DNA of 32,365 nucleotides from positions 1 through 32,365 of the forward strand of contig JADHVR010000045.1 of NCBI GenBank assembly GCA_016783885.1, read 5' to 3'. Under the pieces are notes generated by a model. The model did not search any database. It was not told the DNA's origin and saw nothing but the letters and a program-made list of their open reading frames with translations. This document shows positions 5,833-29,247 of the stretch, piece by piece. The translations under genes and the position numbers were made by a program. Within the stretch, counting starts at the first letter, position 1. The number at the start of each line of letters is the position of its first letter. Source of the DNA: Bacteroidales bacterium. Its GTDB lineage: Bacteria; Bacteroidota; Bacteroidia; Bacteroidales; JAADJA01.

Positions 5833-5841
5833 TCCGGATTA

Positions 5842-8800
5842 ATGCATAATAAAAATAACAATATGAAAGAAAAAGATGGCATTCAAACCGGTTTTGAAGA
5901 ATTGAGAACTCAAACCATTGAAAGATTAAAGGAACTTTCTACAATCAACCGAACCACTTCAATACTAAAAGAAGGAAAATCAATAGAAGAGACCTTACAA
6001 AAAATCGCTCATATTCTTCCAACCGGCTGGCAATACCCTGAGTTTACCTCAGCCAGAATTATATTTGAAGACAGGGAATTCCGTTCAAACAATTTCATTA
6101 AAACAAACTGGGTTCAAAAACAGGATTTTGAGACTATCGATAACAAATCGGGTAGTATTGAAATTTATTATATAAAAAGCTTTCCCCAGGCTGACGAAGG
6201 TCCTTTCCTTGAAGAAGAACGCGACCTGATAATTAACCTGGCAAATATTATTTCAGGATATCTTAACAGTATTAAAGGGCAAGCCTTACTTAAAAAATTT
6301 GATTATCCTGTTGAGAGTGAAAAGCCGGTTGAAGAGAAAGAAAAATGTACAATAACCAACCTGCAATTATTACAAAGATTTCTTAATAGAAATAATTACG
6401 ACAGGGATATTTATCATGACCTGATGCCCTTTAAAGTAAAGGAAATACTTATAGTATCAAATCTTTATGATGCATACAGCATTGAAAAAGAAGGCCGCTT
6501 TTCGGAACATATAATGGGCGAATATGCTCAGTTAAATCTAACCTCTCTTCCAAGAATAACCGGAGTGTCAACAGAAGAAGAGGTTTTAGAACAGCTTCAT
6601 TCCAGGCATTTCGATATTGTCATTCTTATGGTTGGGGTAGATAAGAAAATGCCACTTATAATTAGTGAAAGGATAAAAAAAGCATTTCCTTATATTCCCG
6701 TCTTCCTGCTTCTTAATAACAACAGCGATATTGCCCTTTTCGAAAAAGAAAAGAAGGCTTTTTCATTCGACAGGATGTTCGTCTGGAATGGAGAATCGAG
6801 GATTTTCTTTGCAATGGTCAAGCTCATAGAAGATCAAAATAATATAGAGAACGATACTTCAATAGCATTAGTGCGATTTATCCTTCTTGTAGAAGATTCG
6901 CCTATGTATTATTCAAGGTATCTTCCGATGCTGTACAAAATTGTTTTTGAACAAACAAAAAGAATCATTGATGATGTTAGTACGGATGACCTGTACAAGG
7001 TGCTCAAGTTAAGGGCGAGACCTAAAATTTTATTGGCATCAAGTTATAACGAAGCTGTTAATATTTTTAATAAATATAAAGATTTCATTTTTTGTCTGAT
7101 CACGGATGTTAAATTCAGTAATGAAAGTAAAATGGATGAAACAGCAGGTTTTAAGCTGGTTAAGCACATTCGTAACGAAAAAAAGGACATACCGGTAATT
7201 ATCCAATCATCTGACCAGAAACATGCTGAAGATGCTTTTAAATTAAAATCCACTTTTATTAATAAAAATTCAGAAAACCTGGTTCAGGAATTCAAAAGCT
7301 TTATAATGCACCACTTAGGTTTTGGGAATTTTATATACCGCGACCAATACGGTAAAAAACTGGTAGAAGTTAAATCACTGAAAGATTTTGAAAAACATTT
7401 AAGAATTATTCCTGACGAATCCATTTTATATCATGCAAAAAAAGACCACTTTTCAATGTGGCTTATGGCAAGGGGTGAAATTCAGGCGGCAAAAATACTG
7501 CATCCTAAAAAAATAGATAACTTTAAGGATGCTGATTCTATAAGAGAATACCTGATTAGTGTTATTCACAGATTCCGTAATGAACAAAACCAGGGAAAAG
7601 TTATTCCTTATGAAGAATCAGCCTTTTTGGACGAGAGCAATATTGTTACATTATCGGAAGGCGCCATGGGTGGTAAAGGAAGAGGCTTGGCTTTTATAAA
7701 TTCGCTGATCTATAATCTTGATTTCTCACAATTTGTACCAAATATCAATATCCGTGCTCCACGGACTTCTATCATCGGAGCGGATGAGTTTGAATATTTT
7801 TTAGATCATAATAATTTGCACTATGTAAAAACCGAAGATATATCGTATGAAGAAGTAAAAAGATGTTTCTTGAAAGGCAAATTGACCAATACTCTTATCA
7901 AGAGACTGAAAGCCGGTCTTAAATTGCTGAAAAAACCTCTTGCCATAAGATCATCAGGGCTATTCGAAGACAGTTTGATGCAACCCTTTGCCGGCATTTT
8001 TGAAACATACCTGTTGCCCAACAATCACCCTGATATTAATGTAAGGCTTCAGCAGGTTATGGATGCTATTAAGCTGGTTTATGCTTCTGTTTATTCCGAT
8101 GTAGCCCGCGGTTACATTAAAGCCGTAAACTATAAAATTGAAGAGGAGAAAATGGCGGTTGTGATACAGGAGGTAGTCGGTAATAAATACGGTGATATGT
8201 TTTATCCTCATATCAGCGGTGTGGCACAATCGTACAATTACTATCCTTTTGCCCACATGAAACCCGAGGAAGGATTTGCAGTAGCCGCTTTCGGACTTGG
8301 CAAATATGTAGTTGAAGGTGAAAATGCTTACCGGTTCTCGCCTAAATACCCATCCACTGAAATCCTGACACCAAAAGATCAAATTCAAAATTCACAGGTT
8401 CAGTTTTATGCGGTGGATTTGAAAAAGCAAAAACCGAATCTTCTGGAAGGAGATACTGCCGGTCTTATTAAACCCGATATTGACGAGGCAGAACGGCATG
8501 GTACATTAAAGCACTGCGCATCCGTTTATAATATTGATAATAACACGATTAGCGCGGGGTTAGACAAGCCGGGACCAAGAATAGTTAATTTTGCCAATAT
8601 TTTAAAGTATAATTATATTCCAATGGCAAAAACAATTGAAATTGTCCTCGATATTGTGAAAGAAGCTCTGGGCTCTCCTGTTGAAATCGAGTTTGCTATT
8701 GATCTGAATAAAGACAAGGATTATAAAGCATCGTTCTACCTGTTACAAATAAAACCGATGATAGGTAACGTACAGGACTATAACGTGGATATGGATAAAG

Positions 8801-9315
8801 TCACGAAAAAAGATATTATTCTTTATGCTGAAAAAGGAATGGGTAACGGATTGATCAAAAATATCAGTGATGTTATATATATAGATAATGATGTGTTTGA
8901 TAAATCGAAAACTGAAGAAATGGCATCAGAGATCGAACAGTTGAACAATCAAATGGATAAAGAAGGCAAACAATATGTTTTGATTGGACCCGGCAGATGG
9001 GGTACACGTGATAAATGGATCGGCATTCCGGTTGACTGGCCGCAAATATCAAACGCAAAAGTAATAGTTGAAACCAGCCTTGAAGGATATCCTTTAGATG
9101 CTTCGTCAGGATCACATTTCTTCCATAACGTTACCTCGATGAACGTAGGCTATTTCTCCGTTCAGCCCAAAAAATCGGGAAGTTATATTACTTATGACAT
9201 ATTGGATAAACAGGAACTAATCCAAAAAACAAAATTTTTCCGGCATGTCCGCTTCAAGAAACCTATTAAGGTAAGGATGGATGGGAAGAAGAGGATTTCG
9301 GTGATAACAAAATGA
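5842..9315 (+). CDS. GAF-like / receiver / PEP-pyruvate-binding ATP-grasp domain protein, copy 2
   Basis: A protein of 1157 residues from the ATG at 5842. A TTG at 5830 and an ATG at 5863 are in frame; the latter has the A-rich upstream region favoured in this phylum. Residues about 10-145 form a GAF-like extension that copy 1 lacks. Then come a degenerate receiver and a receiver with acidic pair Glu351-Asp352, LITDV, IIQSSD and INKNS motifs. The PPDK_N ATP-grasp domain follows, with GGKGRGLAF near 610, LAIRSSGLFEDS near 702 and LLQIKP near 967. The C-terminal domain has VLIGPGRWG near 1047. Like copy 1 it lacks the phosphohistidine and PEP-barrel domains, so complete PEP synthase chemistry is unlikely. 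It may sense a ligand (GAF) and phosphorylation state, which is inference. The gene has its own promoter-like region and palindrome upstream. Confidence 0.75.
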   Translation: MHNKNNNMKEKDGIQTGFEELRTQTIERLKELSTINRTTSILKEGKSIEETLQKIAHILPTGWQYPEFTSARIIFEDREFRSNNFIKTNWVQKQDFETIDNKSGSIEIYYIKSFPQADEGPFLEEERDLIINLANIISGYLNSIKGQALLKKFDYPVESEKPVEEKEKCTITNLQLLQRFLNRNNYDRDIYHDLMPFKVKEILIVSNLYDAYSIEKEGRFSEHIMGEYAQLNLTSLPRITGVSTEEEVLEQLHSRHFDIVILMVGVDKKMPLIISERIKKAFPYIPVFLLLNNNSDIALFEKEKKAFSFDRMFVWNGESRIFFAMVKLIEDQNNIENDTSIALVRFILLVEDSPMYYSRYLPMLYKIVFEQTKRIIDDVSTDDLYKVLKLRARPKILLASSYNEAVNIFNKYKDFIFCLITDVKFSNESKMDETAGFKLVKHIRNEKKDIPVIIQSSDQKHAEDAFKLKSTFINKNSENLVQEFKSFIMHHLGFGNFIYRDQYGKKLVEVKSLKDFEKHLRIIPDESILYHAKKDHFSMWLMARGEIQAAKILHPKKIDNFKDADSIREYLISVIHRFRNEQNQGKVIPYEESAFLDESNIVTLSEGAMGGKGRGLAFINSLIYNLDFSQFVPNINIRAPRTSIIGADEFEYFLDHNNLHYVKTEDISYEEVKRCFLKGKLTNTLIKRLKAGLKLLKKPLAIRSSGLFEDSLMQPFAGIFETYLLPNNHPDINVRLQQVMDAIKLVYASVYSDVARGYIKAVNYKIEEEKMAVVIQEVVGNKYGDMFYPHISGVAQSYNYYPFAHMKPEEGFAVAAFGLGKYVVEGENAYRFSPKYPSTEILTPKDQIQNSQVQFYAVDLKKQKPNLLEGDTAGLIKPDIDEAERHGTLKHCASVYNIDNNTISAGLDKPGPRIVNFANILKYNYIPMAKTIEIVLDIVKEALGSPVEIEFAIDLNKDKDYKASFYLLQIKPMIGNVQDYNVDMDKVTKKDIILYAEKGMGNGLIKNISDVIYIDNDVFDKSKTEEMASEIEQLNNQMDKEGKQYVLIGPGRWGTRDKWIGIPVDWPQISNAKVIVETSLEGYPLDASSGSHFFHNVTSMNVGYFSVQPKKSGSYITYDILDKQELIQKTKFFRHVRFKKPIKVRMDGKKRISVITK

Positions 9316-9535: not shown

Positions 9536-9542
9536 TATCATC

Positions 9543-10421
9543 ATGTATGAATTTGTAGCTTTAAACCTAAAATGTCCTTTTTGTGGTGAATCATTCATGG
9601 ACAAAGAACACCTTATTGATAACGAACCCAGTATTTTGCTCAATATTAAATCAGAAGAAAATAAAGGTATTATCAATCTCAGTTCTATTTATGGCAGTTA
9701 TAATTTTTCAAGCGATATTGATCTGCCGGCAGGTGAGATAGTAAAATTTTTCTGCCCGCATTGTAAATCATTATTAAACACAGAAGTTGAATGTATGACA
9801 TGCGGAGCCGAAATGGTAACATCATACCTCGATATGGGAGGTAAAGTAAGCATTTGTTCCAGAAGTGGTTGCAAAAATCATCACGTTGAGTTTGAGGATT
9901 TATCCCAGGCTTTGCGAAAACTTTACCAGGAATACGGTTTCAGGGGTAGAAAATATCCGGCAGACGACAGACCGGAGAAATATAAAGTTGAGACCACAGA
10001 GACAGAAAAGAAAAAAGATGAACATGATGAAATTTTAGAAACCGGCGCATTTCTTCAAAGCTATTGTCCTCACTGCCGGAAAAGTTTAATTGAAGATGAT
10101 ATGCTGAAGCTGAGAATAATTAACGGGGAAGAAGGTTTCCTCATGTTAAGCCCGTACCTTAATGTATTTACCTCTAAGTCCACAATTTTTCTTCCCGAAG
10201 ACAAGACAATAAGCGACCTTAGATGTTTACATTGCGACACCAGCCTTGTGGATATAGAAAAAAAATGTGGAAAATGTGGTTCACCAGTTGCTAAAATTAA
10301 TGTTAGCAGCAGCACAAAACTGATCGATTTTTACATTTGTACAAAAAAAGGCTGCAGATGGCATGGATTGAGCGAAGAAGACTTATACAACATTAAGCTC
10401 GAAGACAGTGATGAATGGTAG
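9543..10421 (+). CDS. Double zinc-ribbon protein 1 (two copies of a Cys-rich module), function unknown
   Basis: A 292-residue soluble protein built from an internal duplication. The first copy has cysteine pairs at 11/14, 71/74, 84/87 and 105/110, with His113-114 after the last. The second copy repeats the pattern at 175/178, 228/231, 242/245 and 266/271, with His274. Each copy has a CPxC knuckle, a beta-rich segment with an LSPYLNVF/LSSIYGSYNF-type motif, a CxHC knuckle, a CxxCG knuckle and a CxxxGCxxH ending (variants C-SRSG-C-KNHH and C-TKKG-C-RWHG). This should bind two zinc ions or possibly other metals per copy. There is no DNA-binding or enzymatic motif that I recognise. It is convergent with nfnB 50 bp away, has a paralogue at 23249-24103, and one module is fused to a second NfnB at 25093. 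A structural, assembly or regulatory partner of Nfn-type enzymes is a reasonable inference. Confidence 0.8.
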   Translation: MYEFVALNLKCPFCGESFMDKEHLIDNEPSILLNIKSEENKGIINLSSIYGSYNFSSDIDLPAGEIVKFFCPHCKSLLNTEVECMTCGAEMVTSYLDMGGKVSICSRSGCKNHHVEFEDLSQALRKLYQEYGFRGRKYPADDRPEKYKVETTETEKKKDEHDEILETGAFLQSYCPHCRKSLIEDDMLKLRIINGEEGFLMLSPYLNVFTSKSTIFLPEDKTISDLRCLHCDTSLVDIEKKCGKCGSPVAKINVSSSTKLIDFYICTKKGCRWHGLSEEDLYNIKLEDSDEW

Positions 10422-10471: not shown

Positions 10472-11893
10472 TTACCAGTTACTTGTTTTAAGATATTCGT
10501 GAATACCACGGGCAGCAATTTTCCCTGCTCCCATAGCAAGAATAACGGTTGCTGCGCCGGTTGCCACATCACCACCGGCAAAAACTCCTTTTTTCGATGT
10601 TTTTCCGGTTTGAGGATCAGTAATGATGGTTCCCCATTTTGAAACTTCAATATCTTTTGTTGTCGAAGGTATCAGGGGATTCGGGCTATTCCCTATGGCA
10701 ATTATTACCACATCTATCGGCAACCTGAAATTTGCCCCTTCAACAGGCACAGGTCTTCTTCTGCCTGAATCGTCAGGTTCGCCAAGTTTCATTGTAATGC
10801 ATTCCGCTTCTTTCACCCACCCGTTTTTATCACCACGAAAAGCTGCCGGGTTTGAGAGTAACTTAAATATAACACCTTCTTGTTCGGCATGATGTATTTC
10901 TTCCTCACGGGCAGGCATTTGTTCCCTTGCTCTCCTATATACGAGAATCGATTCCTCAGCTCCCAGACGCAAAGCAGTACGAGCACAATCCATAGCCACA
11001 TTCCCTCCGCCCACAGTGGCTACTCTTCTACCTTTAATAATTGGGGTTTTATACTTAGGAAAAAGATATGCTTTCATAAGATTAGCACGGGTAAGATATT
11101 CATTAGCCGAATAAACCCCATTCAGGTTTTCTCCGGGTACGTTTAAAAACCATGGCAAACCTGCACCTGTTCCTAAAAACACTGCATCATACTCAGACAA
11201 AAGCTCATCAATGCTTTTTATCATTCCGATAACCGTATCAGTGTATAAGTTTACTCCAAGCTTTTTTAAATAATCAATCTCTTTAAAAACAATTGCCTTT
11301 GGCAGCCTGAATTCGGGAATGCCATAAACAAGCACTCCCCCTGGCTTATGAAGCGCCTCAAACATATCAACTTTATGACCGAGTTTAACCAAATCTGCTG
11401 CTACTGTAATTCCTGCCGGACCAGCTCCGACAACTACAACCTTTTTCCCCGTAGGTCTATGTTTTGGAGGTATTTCAATTTCGCCCCGGTTCCGTTCCCA
11501 GTCGGCAAGGAATCTTTCCAGCCTGCCAATAGCTACAGGTTCGTTCTTTTTCCCTAAGATACATTGTTTCTCACATTGTTCTTCCTGCGGGCACACGCGA
11601 CCACAAATAGCCGGAAGAATGTTCTTTTCCTTGAGCTTTACAATTCCTTCCTTAAATTTTTTTTCAGCAATAAAACCAATAAACTCACATATATCAATTT
11701 CTACCGGACAGCCCTGGACACACAATGGCTTTTTACACTGAAGGCAGCGTTTTGCTTCCGTAACAGCTTCTTCGATGGAGTATCCGAAAGGTACTTCATC
11801 ATAATTATTTACACGCTCTTCAGGCGGCTGCTCCCTCATAGGAGTTTTCTTCGGACTTATTTTAGGTTTTTTTGATGGTTGTTTATCGGTCAT
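10472..11893 (-). CDS. nfnB: NfnB / GltD-family NADPH-binding FAD iron-sulfur subunit, copy 1
   Basis: A 473-residue protein of the glutamate-synthase small-subunit (GltD)/NfnB family. The N-terminal FeS domain has C50-x2-C-x4-C-x3-C62 and a second group in ICGRVCPQEEQCEKQC. The FAD site follows (VVVVGAGPAGITVAADL, then GGVLVYGIPEFRLP). The NADPH site is VATVGGGNVAMDCARTA with YRRAREQMPAREEE, and the closing FAD motif is GGDVATGAATVILAMGAG. In NfnAB this subunit holds the bifurcating FAD and two [4Fe-4S] clusters and couples NADPH to ferredoxin and NAD. A stand-alone glutamate synthase role is less likely because the adjacent partner is NfnA and no GltB large subunit is present. It lies 290 bp downstream of nfnA on the same strand. 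It lacks the zinc-ribbon extension found in copy 2, but a separate zinc-ribbon gene lies convergently next to it. Confidence 0.88.
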   Translation of the reverse strand: MTDKQPSKKPKISPKKTPMREQPPEERVNNYDEVPFGYSIEEAVTEAKRCLQCKKPLCVQGCPVEIDICEFIGFIAEKKFKEGIVKLKEKNILPAICGRVCPQEEQCEKQCILGKKNEPVAIGRLERFLADWERNRGEIEIPPKHRPTGKKVVVVGAGPAGITVAADLVKLGHKVDMFEALHKPGGVLVYGIPEFRLPKAIVFKEIDYLKKLGVNLYTDTVIGMIKSIDELLSEYDAVFLGTGAGLPWFLNVPGENLNGVYSANEYLTRANLMKAYLFPKYKTPIIKGRRVATVGGGNVAMDCARTALRLGAEESILVYRRAREQMPAREEEIHHAEQEGVIFKLLSNPAAFRGDKNGWVKEAECITMKLGEPDDSGRRRPVPVEGANFRLPIDVVIIAIGNSPNPLIPSTTKDIEVSKWGTIITDPQTGKTSKKGVFAGGDVATGAATVILAMGAGKIAARGIHEYLKTSNW

Positions 11894-12183: not shown

Positions 12184-13002
12184 TTATCTTTCTTTTGATA
12201 TTATTTCTTCTTCAAGGTATGCCTTTCGTCTGTCTGAAACTATATTCCAGTCAATCTTATGAGCATCAAAATGAGGTCCGTCAACGCAGGCGAATTTTGT
12301 TTCTCCTTCTACCACCAGCCGGCAGGCGCCGCACATTCCGGTTCCGTCAATCATAACCGGATTCATGCTAACTATGGTTTTAACACCAAAAGGTTTTGTT
12401 ACCCGGGCAACCCTGTACATCATAAAAGTGCAGCCAACAGCCATGATCCGGTCAAAATGTTCGCCCGATTTCAAATTATCTTCGAGAAGATCAAAAGAAT
12501 GTCCTTTGGAGCCAAGGGAACCGTCAACGGTTGAATATCTCACTTCGTCAGCAACTTCCTCTAATTTTTTATTCCAATAAAGTAAAAATTTACTTCTTGC
12601 TTCAGAAAAACATATTACTTTATTCCCATTCTCTTTTAATGTTTTGGCTGCACGGTAGATTCCTCCAATACCATAACAGCCTCCCACCAGAGCGACAGTT
12701 CCAAAATTTTCAATTTCAAAAGGCTTTCCAAGTGGTCCTGTGAAAGAATAGATATCGTCTCCCGTATTAAGTTCTGCCAGTCGTTGAGTAGATGCGCCTA
12801 TTTCTAAAAAAATGATGGTAACATAACCTTTTTCTGCATCCCAATCGGCAATTGTAACCGGAACCCTTTCACTATACTCATCAGGAATAACAATAACGAA
12901 TTGTCCGGGAAGAGCTTTTTTAGCAATTCCCGGGGCATCAACAGTACAGGAATGAATGTTGGGGGCTATTTGCTCTTTTTCGATAATTTCGTTTTTATCC
13001 AT
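12184..13002 (-). CDS. nfnA: NfnA-type FAD/[2Fe-2S] oxidoreductase subunit, copy 1 (divergent)
   Basis: A 272-residue protein of the ferredoxin-NADP reductase-like family (NfnA, also annotated sulfide dehydrogenase beta or dihydroorotate-dehydrogenase electron-transfer-like). The FAD-binding ERVPVTIAD motif lies near residue 65. A C-terminal [2Fe-2S] site is formed by DGTGMCGACR plus the Cys in FACVDGP. The nucleotide-binding part is unusual: the expected GGGxGxAP loop is GGCYGIGGIY, and the usual GARxKDLLILEDE segment reads SEARSKFLLYWNKKLE. NAD binding or specificity may therefore differ from copy 2 (24173-24997), which is canonical there. It is transcribed toward nfnB and starts 58 bp after the stop of the secreted-protein array, so it could be read from upstream transcription. 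Confidence 0.82.
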   Translation of the reverse strand: MDKNEIIEKEQIAPNIHSCTVDAPGIAKKALPGQFVIVIPDEYSERVPVTIADWDAEKGYVTIIFLEIGASTQRLAELNTGDDIYSFTGPLGKPFEIENFGTVALVGGCYGIGGIYRAAKTLKENGNKVICFSEARSKFLLYWNKKLEEVADEVRYSTVDGSLGSKGHSFDLLEDNLKSGEHFDRIMAVGCTFMMYRVARVTKPFGVKTIVSMNPVMIDGTGMCGACRLVVEGETKFACVDGPHFDAHKIDWNIVSDRRKAYLEEEIISKER

Positions 13003-14527: not shown

Positions 14528-14558
14528 ATTAAAATGGTTTTAAAATCAAAGCATAAAT

Positions 14559-18086: not shown

Positions 18087-20669
18087 TTATCCTTTTTCTA
18101 TTTTAACATTAATATAACCTCTATCTAAGCTCAACCCCTTACCAAAAAGATAGAGATGTTCCCATACAGGTTTAAAAAATGCCGTTTTCCCAATTAAATC
18201 CGACATTATTTTAATGCGTTGCTTCGATTTTCCAAATTCAGTAGTAAGCATCACGTTATCTCCATCCTTAATATTCAGATGACCTGCAAGTTCGGGTGAA
18301 ACACAAAGAATCCCTTCTTCCCTTATTACTTTCATATCAGGAATTAAGGCTGATAATATATTCCCCATATAATGAAAGCAGTTTGGTTCAATAATAAGTG
18401 AAACGGGAAATTTATCAGTTTTCCCGGATACCGCAAGACTAACGGGCAATACTTTATTCTGATTTTTGGCAGCAGATGAGTTTTTCAGGTCAATAAATGA
18501 TTTAACCTCAGTAAATATGTCAGATGTTTTTTTATAGTTAAATCCTTTCTCTGACATCTTCCCTGCAATCTCAGAAATTACTTCCCATGTGTAATGGATT
18601 CCTTCTAACGGATGAATTACCGGATTTATCTTTTTTAATTCGCCTTCAATATTTATTGCGTGTCCTTCAACTTCTGTGAAACCGGTTAATGGCAGGAATA
18701 CGTCAGCATATTTCGATGTTTCGGTCAGGAACATATTTTGCTGAACAAAAAATTCTAACCCTGATAAATTCGTGTGTGCCGGTATATCTCCGATTACATA
18801 CATGGAGGTAATTCCATCTTCTGAAATATTATTGACCATTTCATCGGCTGAAACACCACCGGTATTGCCGAGCTTTGTATTCCAATTATCCGACCATTTG
18901 TTTATCAACGCCTTGTCGTCCACTTCATCAAATCCTCCAAGATAATCAGGATGCATTCCAGCTAAAGTGGCTCCGTAGCGATTGCCTTCATCAAGTAAGA
19001 ATAGAATTTGACATCGGGCAGATTTTTTCATCATAAGTTTCAGATTGAGCAGTGTTTTAAAATTGGATAAGTTATCCGCAGTTCTTAATACATTGTCGCC
19101 AACCATTATTATCAGGTTATGCGATTTCAGTAAAGAAGCAGAGATGTCTTTTATCTCCTTCACGGAAACACCGCAATCTTCCACAGCCTTTTTAATGTTA
19201 AAATTCTTCAGGAAGCCGGAAATCTCTTTTGAAATTTTATTTTTATTCCGGGTAATTAATTCTGACAAAAGCAATAACAGGAAAGAAAGTTCTTTTCCCG
19301 GCTGATAAATAACATATTTATTTGAGAAATTGTATGTTTTGTTATAGTGGTTGTTTGCAACAATAACCAGTTTTCCTGCCTTATATGATTTTCTGATACG
19401 ATTTTCGATAATAGGATGAGATATATCACAATTTGCTCCGATAATAAAAATCGTTTCAGCTTTTAAAATATCATCTATTTGAACAGGAGGAAAAACAGAA
19501 TGAAATTCATGAATTTTTTTCAGCAATGTTTTATTCGGATATCCTGAAAGCAAATCCACATTATTCGACCTCATAACTTTACAGGTAAATTTTTGAAGGA
19601 TATAGTTATTTTCAATCGAATCCTGAGCTGATCCTATGAGTCCGAACCGGTTTCCGCGATAACCTTCAAGGTTGTCTGCCGAATACTTTAAAGCTTTTTC
19701 CCAGGTTACTTCAATCCATTTATTATCTTTTTTAATAAGAGGTTTCCGTATTCTATCGGGATGATGGGTAATGTCGCCCGGAACAAATTTACCCCGAACG
19801 CATAGTTGTAACGGTTCTGTTCTTTTACCCGGTTCAGGTCCAACATTTATTATCCTGTTGCCTTTTGTGTTAATATTCATAGTGCATGCAATCGAACAGA
19901 AAGGGCAGGTTGTTCTAATTGATTTATCAGCAACACCAACCCACTGACCCATCTTTTCTGAAATAGACCCGGTTGGACATACGTCAACACAAGCGCCACA
20001 ATATTCACAACCGGCATCTTTCTGAGATTCACCAAATGCAGTACCAACTATCGAAGAATTTCCGCGCTGAACAAACGCTAATACCTCACTGTACCGTTCC
20101 TCATTACATATCCTTACACAGCGTCCGCATAGAACACACAGGTTATAATCCAGTTCATAGAACGGATTATCTTTTATGGGTTTAATATTCCTGTAAGTTA
20201 TCGGAAACCTGACGTCTTTCAATTCAAGATAATCAACTAAATCCTGCAATTCACAATTTCCATTGTTGGTGCAAAAGTTACAACCTGTTGTAATACTGAC
20301 CTTTCTAATTGTGTGCATAAAATCCGCACAATTCTCTTTGTCTTTACATATAAGACAGGTAAAGGGGTGTTCTGAAAGGACAAGCTCAAGAATTTCTTGT
20401 CTAAGCTCCTGCAGTTCGGATGATTTGGTTGTAACCTCCATTCCCTGGCTTACAGGAGTAGTGCAGGCAGTAGGAAATCCCCGCGTGTTTTTTATCTCGA
20501 CTATGCAGAGGCGACAGCCTCCATAATTTTTAAGTTTATCTAAGTAGCAAAGGGTTGGTATATAAATGTCGGCTTTCCGGGCAGCCTGAAGCACTGTAGA
20601 ACCTTCCGGAACTCTAACTTGCTTTCCGTCAATTTTTATTGTAATATTTTGTGTTTTTTGAATACTCAT
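18087..20669 (-). CDS. NuoG/FdhA-like iron-sulfur molybdopterin-family subunit without the catalytic Cys/Sec
   Basis: An 860-residue protein from the ATG at 20669; an upstream TTG at 20729 would overlap the preceding gene and adds residues before the conserved start. In order it has a complex-I-type [2Fe-2S] domain (Cys41, 52, 55, 69), the His-Cys3 cluster HPFTCLICKDKENC, and a TGCNFCTNNGNCELQ motif. Two [4Fe-4S] clusters follow near 177-240 (CVLCGRCVRIC, CEYCGACVDVC), then a molybdopterin-oxidoreductase domain with its own cluster (CPFCSIAC near 252) and a C-terminal molydop-binding domain. Near residue 370, where formate dehydrogenases have a Cys or Sec followed by His, this protein reads SNNVDLLSGYP, so formate oxidation is unlikely. 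With the NuoE/F-like partners upstream it should form a soluble NADH-linked electron-transfer or bifurcating complex (HydABC/Bfu-like). The terminal acceptor is unknown. Confidence 0.82.
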   Translation of the reverse strand: MSIQKTQNITIKIDGKQVRVPEGSTVLQAARKADIYIPTLCYLDKLKNYGGCRLCIVEIKNTRGFPTACTTPVSQGMEVTTKSSELQELRQEILELVLSEHPFTCLICKDKENCADFMHTIRKVSITTGCNFCTNNGNCELQDLVDYLELKDVRFPITYRNIKPIKDNPFYELDYNLCVLCGRCVRICNEERYSEVLAFVQRGNSSIVGTAFGESQKDAGCEYCGACVDVCPTGSISEKMGQWVGVADKSIRTTCPFCSIACTMNINTKGNRIINVGPEPGKRTEPLQLCVRGKFVPGDITHHPDRIRKPLIKKDNKWIEVTWEKALKYSADNLEGYRGNRFGLIGSAQDSIENNYILQKFTCKVMRSNNVDLLSGYPNKTLLKKIHEFHSVFPPVQIDDILKAETIFIIGANCDISHPIIENRIRKSYKAGKLVIVANNHYNKTYNFSNKYVIYQPGKELSFLLLLLSELITRNKNKISKEISGFLKNFNIKKAVEDCGVSVKEIKDISASLLKSHNLIIMVGDNVLRTADNLSNFKTLLNLKLMMKKSARCQILFLLDEGNRYGATLAGMHPDYLGGFDEVDDKALINKWSDNWNTKLGNTGGVSADEMVNNISEDGITSMYVIGDIPAHTNLSGLEFFVQQNMFLTETSKYADVFLPLTGFTEVEGHAINIEGELKKINPVIHPLEGIHYTWEVISEIAGKMSEKGFNYKKTSDIFTEVKSFIDLKNSSAAKNQNKVLPVSLAVSGKTDKFPVSLIIEPNCFHYMGNILSALIPDMKVIREEGILCVSPELAGHLNIKDGDNVMLTTEFGKSKQRIKIMSDLIGKTAFFKPVWEHLYLFGKGLSLDRGYINVKIEKG

Positions 20670-20721
20670 AAGAACCAGATGGATGGTACTGTATTTAATT
20701 TTAATAATTTCTCGCAAACAA

Positions 20722-22611
20722 CTACTCAATTATAATAGCATCACCGGCAATTGCATCAAAGCGGCATATTTCGTAGCAAGCCCTGCATTTGATACATTTT
20801 TCAGGATCGAGATTATGCGGCTCGCTTCTTGGCCCTGAAATGGCTTGTGCCGGGCAAACTTCGACACAGCGCTGGCAACCGGTACATTTTTCTTTTATAA
20901 CCCTGTAAACTACAAGGTCTCTGCATACAGCAGCCGGGCATCTTTTTTTATCAATATGTGCTTCATACTCATCCTTAAAATATTTCAACGTAGTAAGTAC
21001 AGGATTCGGAGCTGTCTGACCCAGTCCGCACAATGAACCCTTTTTTACGGTATCAGCCAGACTTTCCAGGATGCTGATATCTTCCATATTGCCTTTGCCC
21101 TCAGTAATTCTCTCAAGTATCTCAACCATTTTTCGCGTTCCTATACGACAAGGTGTGCATTTACCACAGCTCTCCTGGCTTGTAAATCTGAGGAAATACT
21201 TGGCAATATCAACCATACACGAATGTTCATCCATAACTATTAATCCACCCGACCCCATTATTGATCCGGCTTCTGTAAGCGACTCATAGTCTATCGGCAG
21301 GTCTAAGAACTCTTTCGACAAACATCCACCTGACGGACCTCCTGTCTGTACAGCTTTAAACGGTTTTAGTGTTCCACCCCCTATATCAAAAATTATTTCA
21401 CGAAGGGTTGTCCCGAGAGGCACTTCAATTAACCCTGTTCTTCTTACTTTCCCAACTAATGCAAAAGTCTTTGTTCCCTTACTTTTTTCAGTTCCAAATC
21501 CCGAATACCATTTTCCTCCCTTACGCAAAATATTTGGTACTGTACCCAGGGTTTCAACATTATTGATATTGGTTGGTTTTCCGTTAAGTCCCGAAACAGC
21601 CGGAAATGGCGGTCTGTTGCGGGGCATCCCCCTTTCACCTTCGATTGAGGCAATAAGGGCTGTTTCTTCACCACAAACAAATGCACCGGCTCCTTCTTTC
21701 AATTTTACCTCAAAGTCAAAACCACTATCCAGAATATTTTTCCCTAACAAGCCAGTTTTTTGCATCTGATTTATCGCAATTTTCAACCTGTGGATTGCTA
21801 AAGGATATTCTGCCCTGATATAAATATATCCATAATTGGATCCAATCGCATAAGCTGCTATCAGCATACCTTCAAGCAATGCAAACGGGTCTCCCTCAAT
21901 AAGAGAGCGATTCATAAAGGCGCCCGGGTCTCCTTCATCTGCATTACATATCAAATATTTCGGACTTCCTTTAGCCTCTCTGCAAAATTGCCACTTTTTA
22001 AAAGTCGGGAATCCGGCGCCTCCCCGTCCCCTTAATCCGGCTATCTTTACTTCCTCAATGACGCCCTCGGGACCTTTATTAAAAGCATTTATCAAACCCT
22101 GGAACCCGTCCCGCGCAATATAATGTTTAATATTCTCAGGATCAACAATGCCACAGTTACGCAGGACTATCCGTTTTTGATTTTTTAACATAGGAATGCT
22201 CCAGAACGATTTTATTCCGTCAAATTCTTCAACCTGCTCACCAAGATGACCCAGGGGCTTTAATTTTGCTTCACTCTTAATAATATATTCATTGATAATT
22301 TTTTCTGCCCTGTTTGCATCAACATTATTAAAACATAACCGGGGCTTCCCAGGCAATTTTATATCAAGAAATGGTTCCAGATAACATGGTCCGATACAGC
22401 CAACCTTGAGTAAATGAATTTTTTGTTTTAAGCCCGAAATATTCTTCTCAACTGCATTCCAAACTTCACCGGCGCCCGAGGCAATTCCGCAACTCCCCAT
22501 ACCGAGGTAAATGACAGGATCAGGGTTGCTTTGTAAAGCCTCCCACTGCTCAATGGCTTCTTGTTTTATATGTTTATATCGGGATTTCAAAGTTTTATTA
22601 AAATCATTCAT
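20722..22611 (-). CDS. nuoF: NuoF/HydB-like NADH-binding flavoprotein with N-terminal [2Fe-2S] and C-terminal 2x[4Fe-4S] domains
   Basis: A 629-residue protein. A thioredoxin-like [2Fe-2S] domain at the start (MGSCGIASGAG and VGCIGPC) has three of the usual four cysteines. The NuoF core carries FMN/NADH motifs: GLRGRGGAGFPT near 195, CNADEGDPGAFM, RAEYPLA and GAGAFVCGEETALI. The core's [4Fe-4S] site is SCGKCTPCRIG near 480 plus SLCGLGQ. The C-terminal extension has RCPAAVC and two ferredoxin-like clusters (CTGCQRCVEVCP, CIKCRACYEIC). This domain order is that of HydB/BfuB of electron-bifurcating complexes rather than respiratory NuoF, which lacks the ferredoxin tail. It oxidises or reduces NAD(H) in the cytoplasm. 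Its start overlaps the nuoE-like stop by 8 bp, which implies translational coupling. The symbol reflects family only. Confidence 0.88.
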   Translation of the reverse strand: MNDFNKTLKSRYKHIKQEAIEQWEALQSNPDPVIYLGMGSCGIASGAGEVWNAVEKNISGLKQKIHLLKVGCIGPCYLEPFLDIKLPGKPRLCFNNVDANRAEKIINEYIIKSEAKLKPLGHLGEQVEEFDGIKSFWSIPMLKNQKRIVLRNCGIVDPENIKHYIARDGFQGLINAFNKGPEGVIEEVKIAGLRGRGGAGFPTFKKWQFCREAKGSPKYLICNADEGDPGAFMNRSLIEGDPFALLEGMLIAAYAIGSNYGYIYIRAEYPLAIHRLKIAINQMQKTGLLGKNILDSGFDFEVKLKEGAGAFVCGEETALIASIEGERGMPRNRPPFPAVSGLNGKPTNINNVETLGTVPNILRKGGKWYSGFGTEKSKGTKTFALVGKVRRTGLIEVPLGTTLREIIFDIGGGTLKPFKAVQTGGPSGGCLSKEFLDLPIDYESLTEAGSIMGSGGLIVMDEHSCMVDIAKYFLRFTSQESCGKCTPCRIGTRKMVEILERITEGKGNMEDISILESLADTVKKGSLCGLGQTAPNPVLTTLKYFKDEYEAHIDKKRCPAAVCRDLVVYRVIKEKCTGCQRCVEVCPAQAISGPRSEPHNLDPEKCIKCRACYEICRFDAIAGDAIIIE

Positions 22612-23056
22612 ATTTGCTCAATACTTCTCTGAGTTTGATTACAGACATACGGCTATGAATATTATTATTAACCATCATCACCGGGGCTAATGCACAACAG
22701 CCCAGGCAAGCTACCCTCCCCAGGTCAAATCTTCTGTCTTCAGTTGTTTCACCCGGTTTAATCCCTATTTCCAATTGTAGTGCATTTAATAAAAAATCAC
22801 CTCCCTGTACATGACAGGCAGTACCCAGACATATCTTTATTGAATTTCGGCCGGGGGGATTGAATCTAAATTGCGAATAAAAAGTAGCTACACCATAAAT
22901 CGTGCTTCTCGAAATCCTTAAATGCCTGGAAATTTTAACAATAGCTTCCTGCGAAATGTATCCTTCCTCTTTCTGAACCTCTTGAAGTATTGTAATCAGA
23001 CTTCCTTTGTCGTTAGAAGGATTTTGTTCAAGAATTGTATTTGTTGATCCTGGCAT
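22604..23056 (-). CDS. nuoE: NuoE/HydC-like [2Fe-2S] thioredoxin-fold subunit
   Basis: A 150-residue protein with the NuoE family layout. An N-terminal helical part (LITILQEVQKEEGYISQEAI) leads to IYGVATFYSQFRF. The [2Fe-2S] ligands lie in CLGTACHVQG and ACLGCCALAPV. It transfers electrons within the NuoE/F-type module next to the flavin subunit. It is the first gene of the minus-strand redox set, and its promoter should lie in the 23057-23248 spacer shared with the divergent plus-strand set. Length and motifs are normal. Confidence 0.9.
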   Translation of the reverse strand: MPGSTNTILEQNPSNDKGSLITILQEVQKEEGYISQEAIVKISRHLRISRSTIYGVATFYSQFRFNPPGRNSIKICLGTACHVQGGDFLLNALQLEIGIKPGETTEDRRFDLGRVACLGCCALAPVMMVNNNIHSRMSVIKLREVLSKYE

Positions 23057-24172: not shown

Positions 24173-24997
24173 ATGTTTCAGATTGTAAAAAAGCAGGAAA
24201 TGGCAAAAGGAACGATAATACGTTTTGATATTAGCGCTCCGAAGATTGCAAAAAAAATTAAAGCCGGACAATTTGTAATTATCAGAGTAAACGAAACAGG
24301 AGAAAGGATTCCCCTGACTGTTGCTGATAAAGATGACTTTGCAGGAATAATAACAATAATTTTTCAGGTTGTTGGGAAAACAACGGCATTAATGCGCTCA
24401 TTGAACGAAGGCGATATTTTAATGGATGTTGTTGGTCCGCTTGGAAGACCCGCTGAAGTTGAGAAAATGGGAACGGTTGTAATGGTAGGTGGCGGTACGG
24501 GTGTGGCTATTCTTTATCATGTTGCAAAAGCCTTTAAAGAAGCCGGCAATTATGTAATCGGTATTATGGGTGCACAAGAAAAAGATATGCTTATCCTGGA
24601 AAATGAAATGAGAGCTGTTTGTAATGAAATCGTTGTTACAACTGATGATGGCAGCTATGGCGAACGAGGATTTGTTACCCAGCCTTTGAAAAAATACCTT
24701 GAAGAAAGATTTGATATTAAGCTGATATATACTATCGGCCCGATTATTATGATGAAAAATGTTTGCAAACTGACAGAAAAATATAATGTCAAAACAATGG
24801 TCAGTTTAAACCCTATTATGATTGACGGGACAGGTATGTGCGGCGGATGCAGAGTAAAAGTTAATAATGAAACAAAATTTTGTTGCGTTGACGGTCCCGA
24901 TTTTATCGGACATGAAGTTGATTTTGAGGAGTTGATAAATAGAAATTCTCTTTATTTGAAACAAGAAAAGGATTCTTTGTTATATTCGATTAGATAA
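24173..24997 (+). CDS. nfnA: NfnA-type FAD/[2Fe-2S] oxidoreductase subunit, copy 2
   Basis: A 274-residue protein with canonical NfnA features. The FAD-binding ERIPLTVAD motif is present, along with the NAD-site loop VMVGGGTGVAILYH, GAQEKDMLILENEM, TTDDGSYGERGFVT, and a C-terminal [2Fe-2S] site in DGTGMCGGCR with the Cys of FCCVDGP. In NfnAB this subunit exchanges electrons with NAD(H). The partner is the zinc-ribbon/NfnB fusion 95 bp downstream. Compared with copy 1 its nucleotide-binding loop is standard, so the two Nfn complexes may differ in specificity or direction. Confidence 0.87.
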   Translation: MFQIVKKQEMAKGTIIRFDISAPKIAKKIKAGQFVIIRVNETGERIPLTVADKDDFAGIITIIFQVVGKTTALMRSLNEGDILMDVVGPLGRPAEVEKMGTVVMVGGGTGVAILYHVAKAFKEAGNYVIGIMGAQEKDMLILENEMRAVCNEIVVTTDDGSYGERGFVTQPLKKYLEERFDIKLIYTIGPIIMMKNVCKLTEKYNVKTMVSLNPIMIDGTGMCGGCRVKVNNETKFCCVDGPDFIGHEVDFEELINRNSLYLKQEKDSLLYSIR

Positions 24998-25092: not shown

Positions 25093-26898
25093 ATGTTAGA
25101 ACAAGATGTCAGATATTTAAAATACAAAACATATTTAAGTTTTTATTGCCCGCATTGCAGTAACACTTTTAATGTTGAAAGAAAGCATGAAAAATCATTG
25201 ATCTTTAATGCAAGATATAAGAACAAAGACCTCGTATTAAAGCTTAGTCCTTTTCTTGATGTATTCGATATAAAAGCGTCAATACCTATAAAAATGGGTG
25301 ATGTATTAGATGATCTTCTTTGCCCTCAATGCAAAAAAAGCCTGATAGATCCTGATGTAAAATGCGGGGAATGTGGCTCAAATGTTGGGAAAGCAATTGT
25401 TTCGGCTTATGCAAAGTTAATACCTTTTTATTTTTGCCTGAAACACGGATGTGAATGGCACGGGATTACAAAAGAAGATGAGAAAAAAATAAAGCTGAAG
25501 ATTCCGCGCCAGGATATGCCCGAACAAGACCAGAGATTACGAATCGACAATTTCCAGGAAGTTCCGTATGGATATACTTCAGAGTTAGCCCTTCTTGAAG
25601 CAGGAAGGTGTTTGCAATGCAAGAAACCGAGATGTGTTGAAGGATGCCCTGTAAATGTCGATATCCCTTCATTTATTGCCCTGATTGCAGAAGAAAAATT
25701 CGATGCTGCTGTAAAAAAAATAAAAGAAACTAATGTTCTGCCATCTGTTTGCGGACGTGTCTGCCCCCAGGAAAGTCAGTGTGAAGCTAAATGTGTTCTC
25801 GGAATAAAAGATGAACCTGTGGCTATCGGAAGGCTGGAAAGATTTGTAGCTGATTATGAAAGAAAAATGGACCTTGTGAAAATTCCTGAGATCAGGAATA
25901 ATACAAACCAAAAAATTGCTGTAATAGGTTCCGGCCCGGGCGGTTTAACAATAGCTGCAGATATGCGAAAATTAGGTTACGAGGTAACAATTTTTGAAGC
26001 TTTGCATGAAACGGGCGGTGTTTTAACTTATGGTATTCCCGAATTTCGATTACCTAAATCCATAGTCCAGTTCGAAATAGATTACTTAAAGAAAATGGGA
26101 TGCCGGATTGAATTAAATCATGTAATAGGAAATATTTTAACAATCGACGAACTGCTCGATCATTTCGACTCTGTTTATATTGGTGTTGGTGCCGGACTAC
26201 CCTGGTTTATGGGAATTGAAGGAGAAAGTCTTGGCAACGTCTTTTCGGCTAACGAATTCCTGACCAGGATGAACCTTATGAAAGCATACAGATTCCCTGA
26301 ATATGATACACCAATGCCAAAAGGAAACAAAGTTGCTGTAATCGGCGGTGGTAATGTGGCAATGGATTGTGCAAGAACTGCACTGAGGACCGGGGCCGTA
26401 GAAGTTACAATAGTTTACAGAAGATCAAGAAATGAATTGCCTGCCCGTAGCGAAGAAGTGCATCATGCCGATGAAGAAGGAATAAAGTTCAGGCTGTTAA
26501 CGAGTCCGGTAAGATATATCGGTACGGATACAAGCCTGGTAAAAGGAATGGAGTGTATAAAAATGGAGTTAGGCGAACCTGACTCTTCGGGCAGAAGAAG
26601 ACCTGTCCCGATAGAAAATTCCAATTTTACTTTAGACTGCGACATGGTTATTGTCGCTATCGGTAACGGTCCTAATCCGATAATTTTCCAGTCAACACCT
26701 GATTTAAAGCTTAACAAACGGGGATATATTGAGGTAAATCCCAAAACTAACGAAACTCCTAAAGAATTTGTTTACGCAGGCGGAGATATTGTAACAGGCT
26801 CGGCAACAGTTATCGAAGCTATGGGCGCCGGACGGATAGCTGCTAATGCAATGCACAAAAAACTATCAACTCTAAGCAAGAAAAAAAACAGTTTATAA
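25093..26898 (+). CDS. nfnB: Zinc-ribbon / NfnB (GltD-family) fusion protein
   Basis: A 601-residue protein, about 130 longer than ordinary NfnB. Residues about 15-130 are one copy of the zinc-ribbon module found twice in the proteins at 9543 and 23249: Cys19/22, Cys77/80, Cys91/94, Cys115/120 and His123. After a charged linker, residues about 145-600 are a complete NfnB. It has FeS cysteines from Cys173 (CLQCKKPRCVEGC), VCGRVCPQESQCEAKC, the FAD loop VIGSGPGGL near 278, the NADPH loop VIGGGNVAMDCARTA near 418, and GGDIVTGSATVIEAMGAG. It should hold the bifurcating FAD and two [4Fe-4S] clusters and react with NADPH. The fusion ties the zinc-ribbon module physically to Nfn chemistry. It sits in a same-strand series with nfnA and the NuoE/F/G-like genes. 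Confidence 0.88.
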   Translation: MLEQDVRYLKYKTYLSFYCPHCSNTFNVERKHEKSLIFNARYKNKDLVLKLSPFLDVFDIKASIPIKMGDVLDDLLCPQCKKSLIDPDVKCGECGSNVGKAIVSAYAKLIPFYFCLKHGCEWHGITKEDEKKIKLKIPRQDMPEQDQRLRIDNFQEVPYGYTSELALLEAGRCLQCKKPRCVEGCPVNVDIPSFIALIAEEKFDAAVKKIKETNVLPSVCGRVCPQESQCEAKCVLGIKDEPVAIGRLERFVADYERKMDLVKIPEIRNNTNQKIAVIGSGPGGLTIAADMRKLGYEVTIFEALHETGGVLTYGIPEFRLPKSIVQFEIDYLKKMGCRIELNHVIGNILTIDELLDHFDSVYIGVGAGLPWFMGIEGESLGNVFSANEFLTRMNLMKAYRFPEYDTPMPKGNKVAVIGGGNVAMDCARTALRTGAVEVTIVYRRSRNELPARSEEVHHADEEGIKFRLLTSPVRYIGTDTSLVKGMECIKMELGEPDSSGRRRPVPIENSNFTLDCDMVIVAIGNGPNPIIFQSTPDLKLNKRGYIEVNPKTNETPKEFVYAGGDIVTGSATVIEAMGAGRIAANAMHKKLSTLSKKKNSL

Positions 26899-26931: not shown

Positions 26932-27450
26932 ATGCGAATAGCAAGAATTAGTAGTAAAACCACGGCAGAAGTTAAGGATCCTGTCGATCTGTCGGCACTC
27001 GAATTAGTAATAGAAAAATATAAAAATAAAAAAGGCAACCTGATACCTTTGCTACAAGCGACACAAAATATTTTCGGATATATCCCCATGGAAGCTTTCG
27101 GGAAAATATCAAAAGAAACAGGGCTGAAGTTAAGCGATATGTACGGAGTTGCCACCTTTTATGCTCAGTTCAGGCTGAACCCCGCAGGAAAGTATATTAT
27201 CAAAGTCTGCCATGGTACGGCATGTCATGTTCAGAATGCTAATACAATTACCGATTCATTAGAGGAAGCGCTTAAAATAAAAGATGGAGAAACAACAGAG
27301 GATGGAATATTTACCCTTGAATCTGTTGCATGTCTGGGTTGTTGTTCCCTTGCTCCGGTTATGATGATTGGTGATGAAACTTATGGAAAACTTACCGGAA
27401 ACCAGGCTGTGAAGATTATTAAAAACATCAGGATTCGCGAAAACAATTAG
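26932..27450 (+). CDS. nuoE: NuoE/HydC-like [2Fe-2S] subunit, copy 2
   Basis: A 172-residue paralogue of the 22604-23056 protein, with about 20 extra N-terminal residues. It has MYGVATFYAQFRLNP, CHGTACHVQN and ACLGCCSLAPVMM, providing the four [2Fe-2S] cysteines. It is the small electron-transfer subunit of the second NuoE/F/G-type complex. It starts 33 bp after the nfnB fusion and ends 18 bp before the nuoF-like gene, so operon membership is clear. Confidence 0.9.
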   Translation: MRIARISSKTTAEVKDPVDLSALELVIEKYKNKKGNLIPLLQATQNIFGYIPMEAFGKISKETGLKLSDMYGVATFYAQFRLNPAGKYIIKVCHGTACHVQNANTITDSLEEALKIKDGETTEDGIFTLESVACLGCCSLAPVMMIGDETYGKLTGNQAVKIIKNIRIRENN

Positions 27451-27468: not shown

Positions 27469-29247
27469 ATGGAAGCAACTAAAGTAATCGTCGGACTTGG
27501 AAGTTGTGGTATAGCAGCGGGAGCTAAAAAAGTATATGATAAGATAGAAGCTGTAAAAGAAGCTGAGAACCTCGGGTTCGAACTAAAAAAGACCAGTTGT
27601 GTCGGAATGTGTTACAGGGAGCCGTTGGTGGAGATTATCGACAAATCAGGCTCTTACCTTTACGGTGATATTGATGAGGATAAAGCCGTTGAACTGATCG
27701 AAAAGCACATTAATCAACAAGAACCGATTAAAGAGTATGTTGTTCAATCCGATTTCTTTAAAACCGTTGACAACGAATTCACAGATTCACAAGTCAAAAT
27801 AGCTCTTCGTAACTGCGGATACATTGATCCCGAATCCATCGAAGAATATGAAAGCAGAAGCGGATACAGGGCTATCAAAATAATTGCAGGTTCCGGCATG
27901 TCGCGCCTTGATGTAATACAGGCTGTTCTGGGTTCAGGGTTGAGAGGCAGGGGAGGTGGCGGCTTTCCAACCGGATTAAAATGGAAGTTTGCCAATAATA
28001 ATATAGCCGACGAAAAGTTCATTATCTGCAATGCTGATGAGGGCGATCCCGGTGCTTTCATGGACCGTTCCGTACTGGAAGGCGATCCTCATGCTGTGGT
28101 TGAGGGAATGATAATCGGAGCTTATGCCATTGAAGCATCAGGAGGCATCATATATTGCCGTGCCGAATACCCCCTGGCTATTAAACGACTGAATATCGCT
28201 ATTGAACAGGCAAGAGCAAAAGGATATCTGGGTCAGAATATTTTAGGGATCCGGGGATTTAATTTTGATATATTTATAAAAGAAGGAGCCGGAGCATTCG
28301 TTTGTGGTGAAGAAACCGCCTTAATCGCATCGGTAGAAGGTCAAAGAGGAATGCCTCGCAAACGTCCTCCGTTCCCTGCTGCATCAGGACTATGGAAAAT
28401 GCCTACTAATATCAATAATGTTGAAACCCTTGCTAACATACCCTGGATCATTCTTCACGGTGCTAAGGAGTATTCCAAATACGGCACTGAAAAAAGTAAA
28501 GGAACAAAGGTATTTGCACTTGCCGGTAAAATAAAACGTTCAGGACTGGTTGAAGTTCCTATGGGAATGAGCATACGGGATGTGATATTTAAGTTAGGCG
28601 GCGGCATACAAGGAGATAAAAAATTCAAGGCTGTACAGATGGGAGGTCCTTCAGGCGGCTGTATTCCAGAACATCTGGCAGATACAATTATCGATTATGA
28701 TTCGGTAAATGCTACGGGCGCAATCATGGGATCAGGCGGCATGGTGGTTATGGACGAAACTACTTGTATGATAGATGTGGCAAAATTCTTCCTCGATTTC
28801 ACACAAAAGGAATCCTGTGGCAAATGTACTTTCTGCCGTATAGGAACCAAACGGATGTTAGAAATACTTATCAGGATAACCGAAGGCAAAGGAGAAGAAG
28901 GCGACATTGAAAAACTGGAAGACCTCGCATACCAGATAAAGGAAAGTTCACTGTGTGGTTTGGGTCAAACAGCACCGAACCCCGTGCTTACTACTATTAA
29001 ATATTTCAGGAATGAATATGAGGCTCATATCAGGGATAAAAAATGTCCTGCCAAAGTTTGTAAACCTCTGCTGACTTATGAAGTGGATCCTGAAAAATGT
29101 ACGGGATGTACCGTTTGTGCAAAAAACTGTCCGTCCAATGCCATTGACGGTAATAAAAAAGAAGTTCACTTCATCCGTCAGGACGACTGTATTAAGTGCG
29201 GTATGTGCTACTCCAGGTGTAAATTTGATGCTATCAAAGTTTCATAA
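27469..29247 (+). CDS. nuoF: NuoF/HydB-like NADH-binding flavoprotein with ferredoxin-like tail, copy 2
   Basis: A 592-residue protein. The N-terminal thioredoxin-like domain has GLGSCGIAAGA and SCVGMC, again three cysteines. The NuoF core has GLRGRGGGGFPT near 160, CNADEGDPGAFMDR, RAEYPLA, GAGAFVCGEETALI, SCGKCTFCRIG near 449 and SLCGLGQTAPNP. The C-terminal part has KCPAKVC and two [4Fe-4S] ferredoxin motifs near 541-585 (CTGCTVCAKNCP, CIKCGMCYSRC). As in copy 1, this order is that of HydB/BfuB-type bifurcating subunits. It binds NAD(H) and FMN. It is followed 13 bp later by the NuoG/GltD fusion. Confidence 0.9.
   Translation: MEATKVIVGLGSCGIAAGAKKVYDKIEAVKEAENLGFELKKTSCVGMCYREPLVEIIDKSGSYLYGDIDEDKAVELIEKHINQQEPIKEYVVQSDFFKTVDNEFTDSQVKIALRNCGYIDPESIEEYESRSGYRAIKIIAGSGMSRLDVIQAVLGSGLRGRGGGGFPTGLKWKFANNNIADEKFIICNADEGDPGAFMDRSVLEGDPHAVVEGMIIGAYAIEASGGIIYCRAEYPLAIKRLNIAIEQARAKGYLGQNILGIRGFNFDIFIKEGAGAFVCGEETALIASVEGQRGMPRKRPPFPAASGLWKMPTNINNVETLANIPWIILHGAKEYSKYGTEKSKGTKVFALAGKIKRSGLVEVPMGMSIRDVIFKLGGGIQGDKKFKAVQMGGPSGGCIPEHLADTIIDYDSVNATGAIMGSGGMVVMDETTCMIDVAKFFLDFTQKESCGKCTFCRIGTKRMLEILIRITEGKGEEGDIEKLEDLAYQIKESSLCGLGQTAPNPVLTTIKYFRNEYEAHIRDKKCPAKVCKPLLTYEVDPEKCTGCTVCAKNCPSNAIDGNKKEVHFIRQDDCIKCGMCYSRCKFDAIKVS

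Follow-up and report, generated by a model that had tools for sequence, protein, structure and literature searches.

The stretch of Bacteroidales DNA analysed here (32,365 nucleotides, referred to below as the window) encodes five copies of a module of about 125 residues with eight cysteines, identified by profile search and translation, which appears to be of the double zinc-ribbon type and to belong to a family that is undescribed as far as the libraries and papers searched show. The module exists in two forms, and our preferred interpretation, put forward tentatively, is that it may be built permanently into a subset of NAD(P)H-ferredoxin flavoenzyme complexes as a docking or regulatory domain.

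A single profile, built from these five copies and their relatives by iteration over the first loci, matched all five over their full length (140-152 bits). As the sequence-only reading had proposed, two copies lie in each of two free-standing proteins (p1 and p2) and one at the start of an NfnB (Table 1). Form A, in the first half of p1 and p2, has the signature CPxC...LSSIYxSY...CPHC...CxxC...CSRxGCxxH, and form B, in the second half of these proteins and in the NfnB fusion, the signature CPHC...LSPYLNVF-like...CxxC...CxxC...CxKxGCxWHG, with LSPFLDVF as the core in the fusion. The two forms are homologous (hhalign probability of 98.9, over 110 columns). The motif with an LSPYLNVF core originally ascribed to all copies is found in B, but not in A, and therefore describes one of two paralogous forms. 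The p1 and p2 proteins are 53% identical, and a protein 95% identical to p2 is encoded in a Bacteroidales MAG.

Seven of the eight cysteine columns were invariant in a 46-row alignment, the remaining one (C15) being nearly so. Among 195 copies from the retrieved loci, six cysteines were kept in at least 194 and the eighth in 187. The second ligand place contained CxxC in 162 copies, CxxxC (the cysteine one residue further on) in 10 and CxxxH in 23, the last comprising 13 single copies and 10 of the 13 copies in histidine kinases described below; a possible ligand (Cys or His) is thus kept at this place in all 195. Such paired Cys/His knuckles, able to bind two metals, place the module in the broad class of zinc-ribbon folds. 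The obvious reading would be two four-ligand metal sites per module; the metal is probably zinc, and any assignment of particular knuckles to a shared metal would be putative. The first two cysteine pairs are separated by a strand-rich stretch of about 50 residues.

Table 1. Module-containing and flavoenzyme-type genes of the window, in order of position.
Feature	Position	Strand	Basis
p1, two-module (A+B) protein, 292 aa	9543..10421	+	ORF and profile
p1, module A	9540-9917	+	profile
p1, module B	10032-10400	+	profile
Second NfnB, without module, convergent with p1	10472..11893	-	TIGR01316, above cut-off
Second NfnA	12184..13002	-	NF004862, above cut-off
NuoG-type/formate-dehydrogenase-like molybdopterin protein	18087..20729	-	PF00384, PF13510, PF10588
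NuoF-like, divergent run	20722..22611	-	PF01512 at 21535-22050
NuoE-like, divergent formate-dehydrogenase-type run	22604..23056	-	ORF list
p2, two-module (A+B) protein, 284 aa	23249..24103	+	ORF and profile
p2, module A	23258-23635	+	profile
p2, module B	23708-24082	+	profile
NfnA, between p2 and fused NfnB	24173..24997	+	NF004862, 391 bits, above cut-off
NfnB (GltD-type), B-type module at N-terminus (25114-25497)	25093..26898	+	ORF and profile
NuoE-like (StnA/HydC-type)	26932..27450	+	named by eye; served as NuoE query
NuoF-like (StnB/HydB-type)	27469..29247	+	PF01512 at 27934-28443
StnC-like NuoG/GltD/molybdopterin-fold subunit, start approximate, cut by contig end	29270..32365	+	Pfam, PDB

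From position 23249 onwards, the gene order is p2, NfnA, module-NfnB, NuoE, NuoF and the StnC-like subunit. All three module genes adjoin or are Nfn genes, as had been stated: p1 lies 57 bp from an opposing NfnB frame, p2 lies directly upstream of NfnA and the third gene is itself an NfnB, in which the Fer4_20 domain begins at residue 150. The closest PDB chains to the StnC-like subunit are 9bov_A (E 9.1e-225) and 8oh5_C (E 1.5e-213). The host genome (of an uncultured Bacteroidales-type bacterium; 4.1 Mb, 155 contigs) contains two further copies outside the window. One is a single-module gene with HypF/HypC on one side and a Crp-type regulator on the other; the second forms a C-terminal extension of a NuoE-like protein, with a NuoF-GltD fusion as the next gene.

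Other genes of the window were recorded as observations in their own right. A glutamate dehydrogenase (4332-5669) is flanked by two large proteins (1207-4179 and 5830-9315), in both of which a pyruvate phosphate dikinase N-terminal domain is joined to a region resembling a response regulator; relatives of these dikinase-domain proteins are found repeatedly close to module genes in loci from Bacteroidota, Cloacimonadota and Thermoplasmatota. Three PKD/Por_Secre_tail proteins are encoded at 13061-18034, in the interval that separates the second NfnA from the formate-dehydrogenase-type genes. Each has ahead of it, on the minus strand, an ORF of about 100 aa without a Pfam match at 1e-6, an arrangement that looks like a duplicated secreted-protein array.

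Matches to the module were obtained in 22 of 60 genomes of relatives (E ≤ 0.01), in 27 of 375 genomes of the window's phylum (E ≤ 1e-8), in 28 of 117 genomes of the phylum of the Cloacimonadota centre genome (E ≤ 1e-4) and, at E ≤ 1e-6, in 16 of 47 genomes for the Eisenbacteria centre, 7 of 243 for the Thermoplasmatota centre, 8 of 198 for the Spirochaetales centre and 23 of 42 for the Sabulitectum centre. The phyla covered, and the names used for them, are those of the centre genomes, together with a first pattern scan that contributed 17 loci. Within the window's phylum, and leaving its own genome aside, loci were retrieved for 13 of 26 genomes with a match; the corresponding numbers were 27 of 28 in the Cloacimonadota search and 8 of 23 in the Sabulitectum search. 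The sets of 161 and 167 ORFs correspond to deduplicated rows above 35 bits, after the removal of weaker rows and duplicates. Obligatory pairing of A with B was rejected, as all seven matching genomes of the Thermoplasmatota phylum hold a single match.

We examined the neighbours of 167 distinct module genes, with partner labels assigned by phmmer matches to window or locus proteins and confirmed with Pfam for examples. Nfn or Nuo genes were found within 1.5 kb of 33 of the 36 two-module proteins, all 32 NfnB fusions and eight of the nine NuoE fusions, the ninth (L161) lying at a contig end. Among the three two-module exceptions, contig ends truncate two loci (L018 and L045), and the third (L016) has 8 kb on both sides without Nfn or Nuo genes. 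The single modules were more varied: 25 of 77 were near Nfn/Nuo genes and seven, all in Bacteroidales-type genomes, were within 1.5 kb of Hyp genes; Crp- or Rex-type regulators stood beside a few. For 43 of the 77, no recognised partner was found among Nfn/Nuo, Hyp and HybA/NrfD genes (1.5 kb) or glutamate dehydrogenase (4 kb), a count that partly reflects ignorance, because many loci among the relatives carry only about 1.5 kb of flanking sequence. As a background, regions no more than 1.5 kb away from a NuoF- or GltD-type domain match make up about 1% of the window's genome, and two of its three free-standing module genes fall within that fraction (P about 3e-4, for this genome alone); the binomial P values are extreme but overstated, owing to the shared ancestry of the genes and to a background taken from a single genome. 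The link between the module and Nfn- and NuoEF-type flavoenzymes is well supported. The profile search and neighbour scoring suggested in the sequence-only reading yielded enrichment and no match to a characterised family. The restriction to Nfn did not survive, as the module is also fused to NuoE, inserted in histidine kinases and found near Hyp genes; the earlier interpretation was therefore partly supported, being right in direction but too narrow in scope.

Several gene sets encountered in this survey deserve mention. In L102 (675-7194), L071, L106 and L127, the order NuoE-(module)-NuoF::GltD fusion-small NuoG-like ferredoxin protein-glutamate-synthase-like protein (PF01645) recurs, in both bacteria and Thermoplasmatota, with glutamate dehydrogenase adjoining in several loci; this set appears to specify an undescribed NAD(P)H/ferredoxin complex of the glutamate-synthase type. 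A cysteine-rich protein of about 100 aa without a Pfam match is encoded in L102 (7210-7518) and near L096, L109 and L132, and its motif (CxxC..C..YCEEY-like) also forms the tail of a NuoE-module fusion (L004, 1408-2328). In Eisenbacteria loci L123 (5415-6722) and L114, the module gene overlaps or adjoins a gene for an iron-hydrogenase-domain/4Fe-4S protein (labelled with Pfam for L123 and by eye for L114) beside a NuoE-NuoF set.

The relationship with Nfn is confined to part of this enzyme family. The 60 genomes contained 54 NfnA-type matches, 16 with the module nearby and 38 without it. All 12 NfnA proteins at least 76% identical to that of the window had an adjoining module, versus four of the other 42 with a module within about 2 kb (hand comparison); these four are found in G023 (two), G030 (one) and the window (its second NfnA). 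Eleven of the 42 were weak matches (92-112 bits), perhaps to other electron-transfer subunits, and without them the ratio is 4 of 31. Ordinary NfnAB without the module were present within the same genus. The module-free majority, which extends to members of one genus, indicates that Nfn works without the module, and the contrast between 12 of 12 and 4 of 42 shows that the module marks one Nfn subtype. A general Nfn subunit, which should be encoded with nfnAB generally, was rejected on these counts. The claim that the module tracks with Nfn genes therefore stands as an enrichment beside Nfn and NuoEF genes, but not as a general partnership, and physical membership of the complex is indicated, through the fusion to NfnB, for the fused B form only.

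Phylogenetic analysis placed the 24 fused NfnB sequences in one clade (support 0.969) drawn from Bacteroidota and Cloacimonadota; the second NfnB of the window (as L002) fell outside it. The sister of this clade is the unfused NfnB of the archaeal locus L019, in which a same-strand run at the contig start opens with a free-standing B-type module, but this split pair is the weaker one, because the module lies closest to NuoE and is separated by about 6 kb from NfnB, which follows it. A NuoE clade of 17 sequences (support 0.998), from Bacteroidota, Cloacimonadota, Eisenbacteria, Spirochaetota and Thermoplasmatota, contained nine NuoE-module fusions and eight NuoE proteins with an adjoining separate module gene, the latter from Cloacimonadota and Thermoplasmatota; it provides a clear fused/split pair for form A. 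In the tree of the modules themselves, in which several deep nodes were weakly supported, NfnB fusions grouped with the B halves, NuoE fusions with the A halves and the kinase copies in a group of their own. B-type single modules are nonetheless found beside NuoE in the archaeal loci L019, L130 and L131, and beside NuoF in L021 and L113. The association of A with NuoE and B with NfnB therefore holds for fusions, but not strictly for neighbours. As all loci were retrieved for holding a module, the trees are silent on the rate of module-free members in the NfnB and NuoE clades.

The occurrence of one fused NfnB clade in both Bacteroidota and Cloacimonadota, and the 43 single modules without a partner, would be expected of an often-transferred cassette, the neighbours of which say little about function. 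Such hitch-hiking is improbable, however, given that NfnB and NuoE each carry a fusion of their own, that of NuoE being matched by split genes, and given neighbour counts far above the background of about 1%, even though relatedness makes the P values too small.

The module was also identified in the ATPase region of 13 histidine kinases from Bacteroidota and Eisenbacteria loci (L052-L057, L060, L061, L064, L065, L121, L122 and L124), this number being that of the kinases examined, with other frames of about 620 aa in the search of the window's phylum falling outside the count. HAMP, HisKA and HATPase domains were recognised by Pfam in the two kinases scanned; the isolated first half of the kinase ATPase domain, which is too short, gave no Pfam match. 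In a pattern search, the module was preceded by an N-box-like motif and followed by a G1-type motif in 10 of the 13 kinases; of the others, L065 is truncated at the contig end, and neither L053 nor L057 satisfies the strict N-box pattern, the N-box of L053 being a variant by eye. Profile comparison showed the modules of the kinases to be homologous to both forms (hhalign 99.3 for A and 98.6 for B). At the second ligand place, 10 of the 13 have a histidine and three a cysteine one residue further on, and the eighth cysteine is lost in seven. All 13 kinase genes lie within 1.5 kb of HybA/NrfD-type genes and 12 lie within 1.5 kb of a regulator-type gene; the L052/L053 operon encodes, according to Pfam, a 4Fe-4S protein, NrfD, a class III cytochrome and two response regulators with GcvH-like domains. 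A plasmid search with one kinase gave, among the matches listed, kinase-type or unannotated proteins with less than 60% identity, none covering 80%. These copies would fit a sensory role as well.

This position in the ATPase region, with the N-box/G1 flanks, the HybA/NrfD and regulator neighbours of the kinases and the Crp- or Rex-type genes beside a few single modules are the features expected of a thiol/zinc redox switch, in which Cys-zinc sites would sense the cytoplasmic redox state and turn flavoenzymes or the kinase ATPase on or off. We regard such a switch as rather unlikely, because the histidine swap and the loss of the eighth cysteine in kinase copies are changes in the wrong direction for a thiol-based sensor. 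The same ligand data bear on an electron-transfer domain in which the CPxC/CxxC pairs, which resemble the knuckle motifs of rubredoxin, would bind iron. The fused forms do sit on redox enzymes, but one ligand is a histidine in 23 of 195 copies, another is lost in seven of the 13 kinase copies and it is not evident what purpose electron transfer would serve within an ATPase domain; a rubredoxin-like function is accordingly very improbable. A HypA-like factor for the assembly or maturation of flavin/iron-sulfur or hydrogenase complexes would be in keeping with the seven single modules near Hyp genes and with a weak, below-cut-off match of p2 to the HypA zinc region (19.3 bits), but fusion to NfnB and NuoE and a place within a kinase ATPase are unsuited to a transient chaperone, and we consider this possibility quite unlikely. 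The sequence-only reading had left open an uncharacterised subunit, a sensing partner or an assembly factor: an uncharacterised, probably metal-binding and enriched module is what we found, with the assembly factor as the weaker option, because the fusions point to a permanent domain.

A docking or restraining role would be the most economical reading of where the module lies in the flavoenzymes. Form B, at the N-terminus of one NfnB clade, is positioned just ahead of the Fer4_20 iron-sulfur domain, which carries the ferredoxin-side clusters in known Nfn. Form A, on or encoded beside one NuoE clade, in its fused form follows the thioredoxin-like [2Fe-2S] domain. The homologue of that domain in StnA is the moving gate of bifurcation, according to PMC10482914. 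The A+B protein would interact with these partners too and might link NfnAB to NuoEF-type complexes nearby; alternatively, it could limit gate or ferredoxin access. Against docking stand the module-free NfnA (38 of 54), the partnerless single modules (43 of 77), the two-module gene of L016 with its flanks free of Nfn/Nuo genes, the loose rule linking form to partner, the single matches in the Thermoplasmatota-phylum genomes and the kinase copies.

More speculatively, the module might act as a common receptor for a single low-potential redox partner or signal, such as ferredoxin, through which enzymes and kinase-dependent gene control would be served by one domain in bacteria and archaea: in enzymes of the NuoEF and NfnAB types, A and B would bring it to the side of the gate or of ferredoxin, and the kinase copy, beside HybA/NrfD-type genes, would read the same signal. 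We do not expect this broader proposal to hold. Electron-bifurcating enzymes have been described as compact assemblies of known subunits. A conserved extra domain would be a missing part of the assembly or control of bifurcating complexes in anaerobes living near the energy limit; a domain fused to two core subunits, separate in archaea and reused in kinases hints at assembly or control that has yet to be studied.

Profile searches of Pfam, NCBIfam and PDB yielded only generic or partial zinc-ribbon matches. With Pfam DZR (PF12773) and Zn_ribbon_6 (PF07191) the module shares paired CxxC knuckles: p1 scored 27.4 against DZR (cut-off 27.3) and 25.1 against Zn_ribbon_6 (cut-off 25), and p2 exceeded the Zn_ribbon_6 cut-off by 0.1 bit, in each case over short stretches of generic profiles. 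The best stretches cover 23-37 of the 125 residues, leaving the strand-rich stretch of about 50 residues uncovered. The zinc region of methionyl-tRNA synthetase (PF09334) also gave partial matches above the cut-off (p1, 20.2 with a cut-off of 20.1; p2, 23.8, E 2.3e-5), and the module profile weakly matched synthetases, named by eye, in G000 and G052; a synthetase catalytic domain was rejected, as about 70 of 391 profile positions were matched and the module does not lie within a synthetase. Two other candidates were discarded: the acetophenone carboxylase subunit ApcB (p1 residues 44-82, E 0.0012, 18.7 bits against an NCBIfam cut-off of 250) and the nickel chaperone HypA, matched by p2 in the zinc region only (E 0.0012, Pfam cut-off 28.9). 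Among PDB sequence profiles, the matches were short and zinc-finger-like, the best in one search being a zinc-finger array in 17-residue pieces. The structure model of p2 had a mean pLDDT of 71.5, with block means of 74-95 for most of module A and about 34 for the linker; with this modest model, Foldseek returned no solved structure at E ≤ 0.001 (best E 0.37). For the fusion model, NfnB/GltD/dihydropyrimidine-dehydrogenase-type structures were among the matches listed. No description of the module was found in the literature searched, including passages of PMC10482914 and PMC6405883, with subscription papers mostly outside the search.

The NfnB part of the fusion is 49-57% identical to that of NfnAB (PDB 4ylf and 5jca), with the alignment beginning at residue 139, whereas the solved NfnB chains (468-476 aa) have no N-terminal module. 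Stn is described, in passages of PMC10482914, with one zinc, in StnB, and no further subunit. The window from 26932 to 32365 fits the architecture of StnABC/NfnABC (PDB 8oh5 and 9bov), with a large subunit that matches by sequence, but differs from these complexes in that the module genes are extra here.
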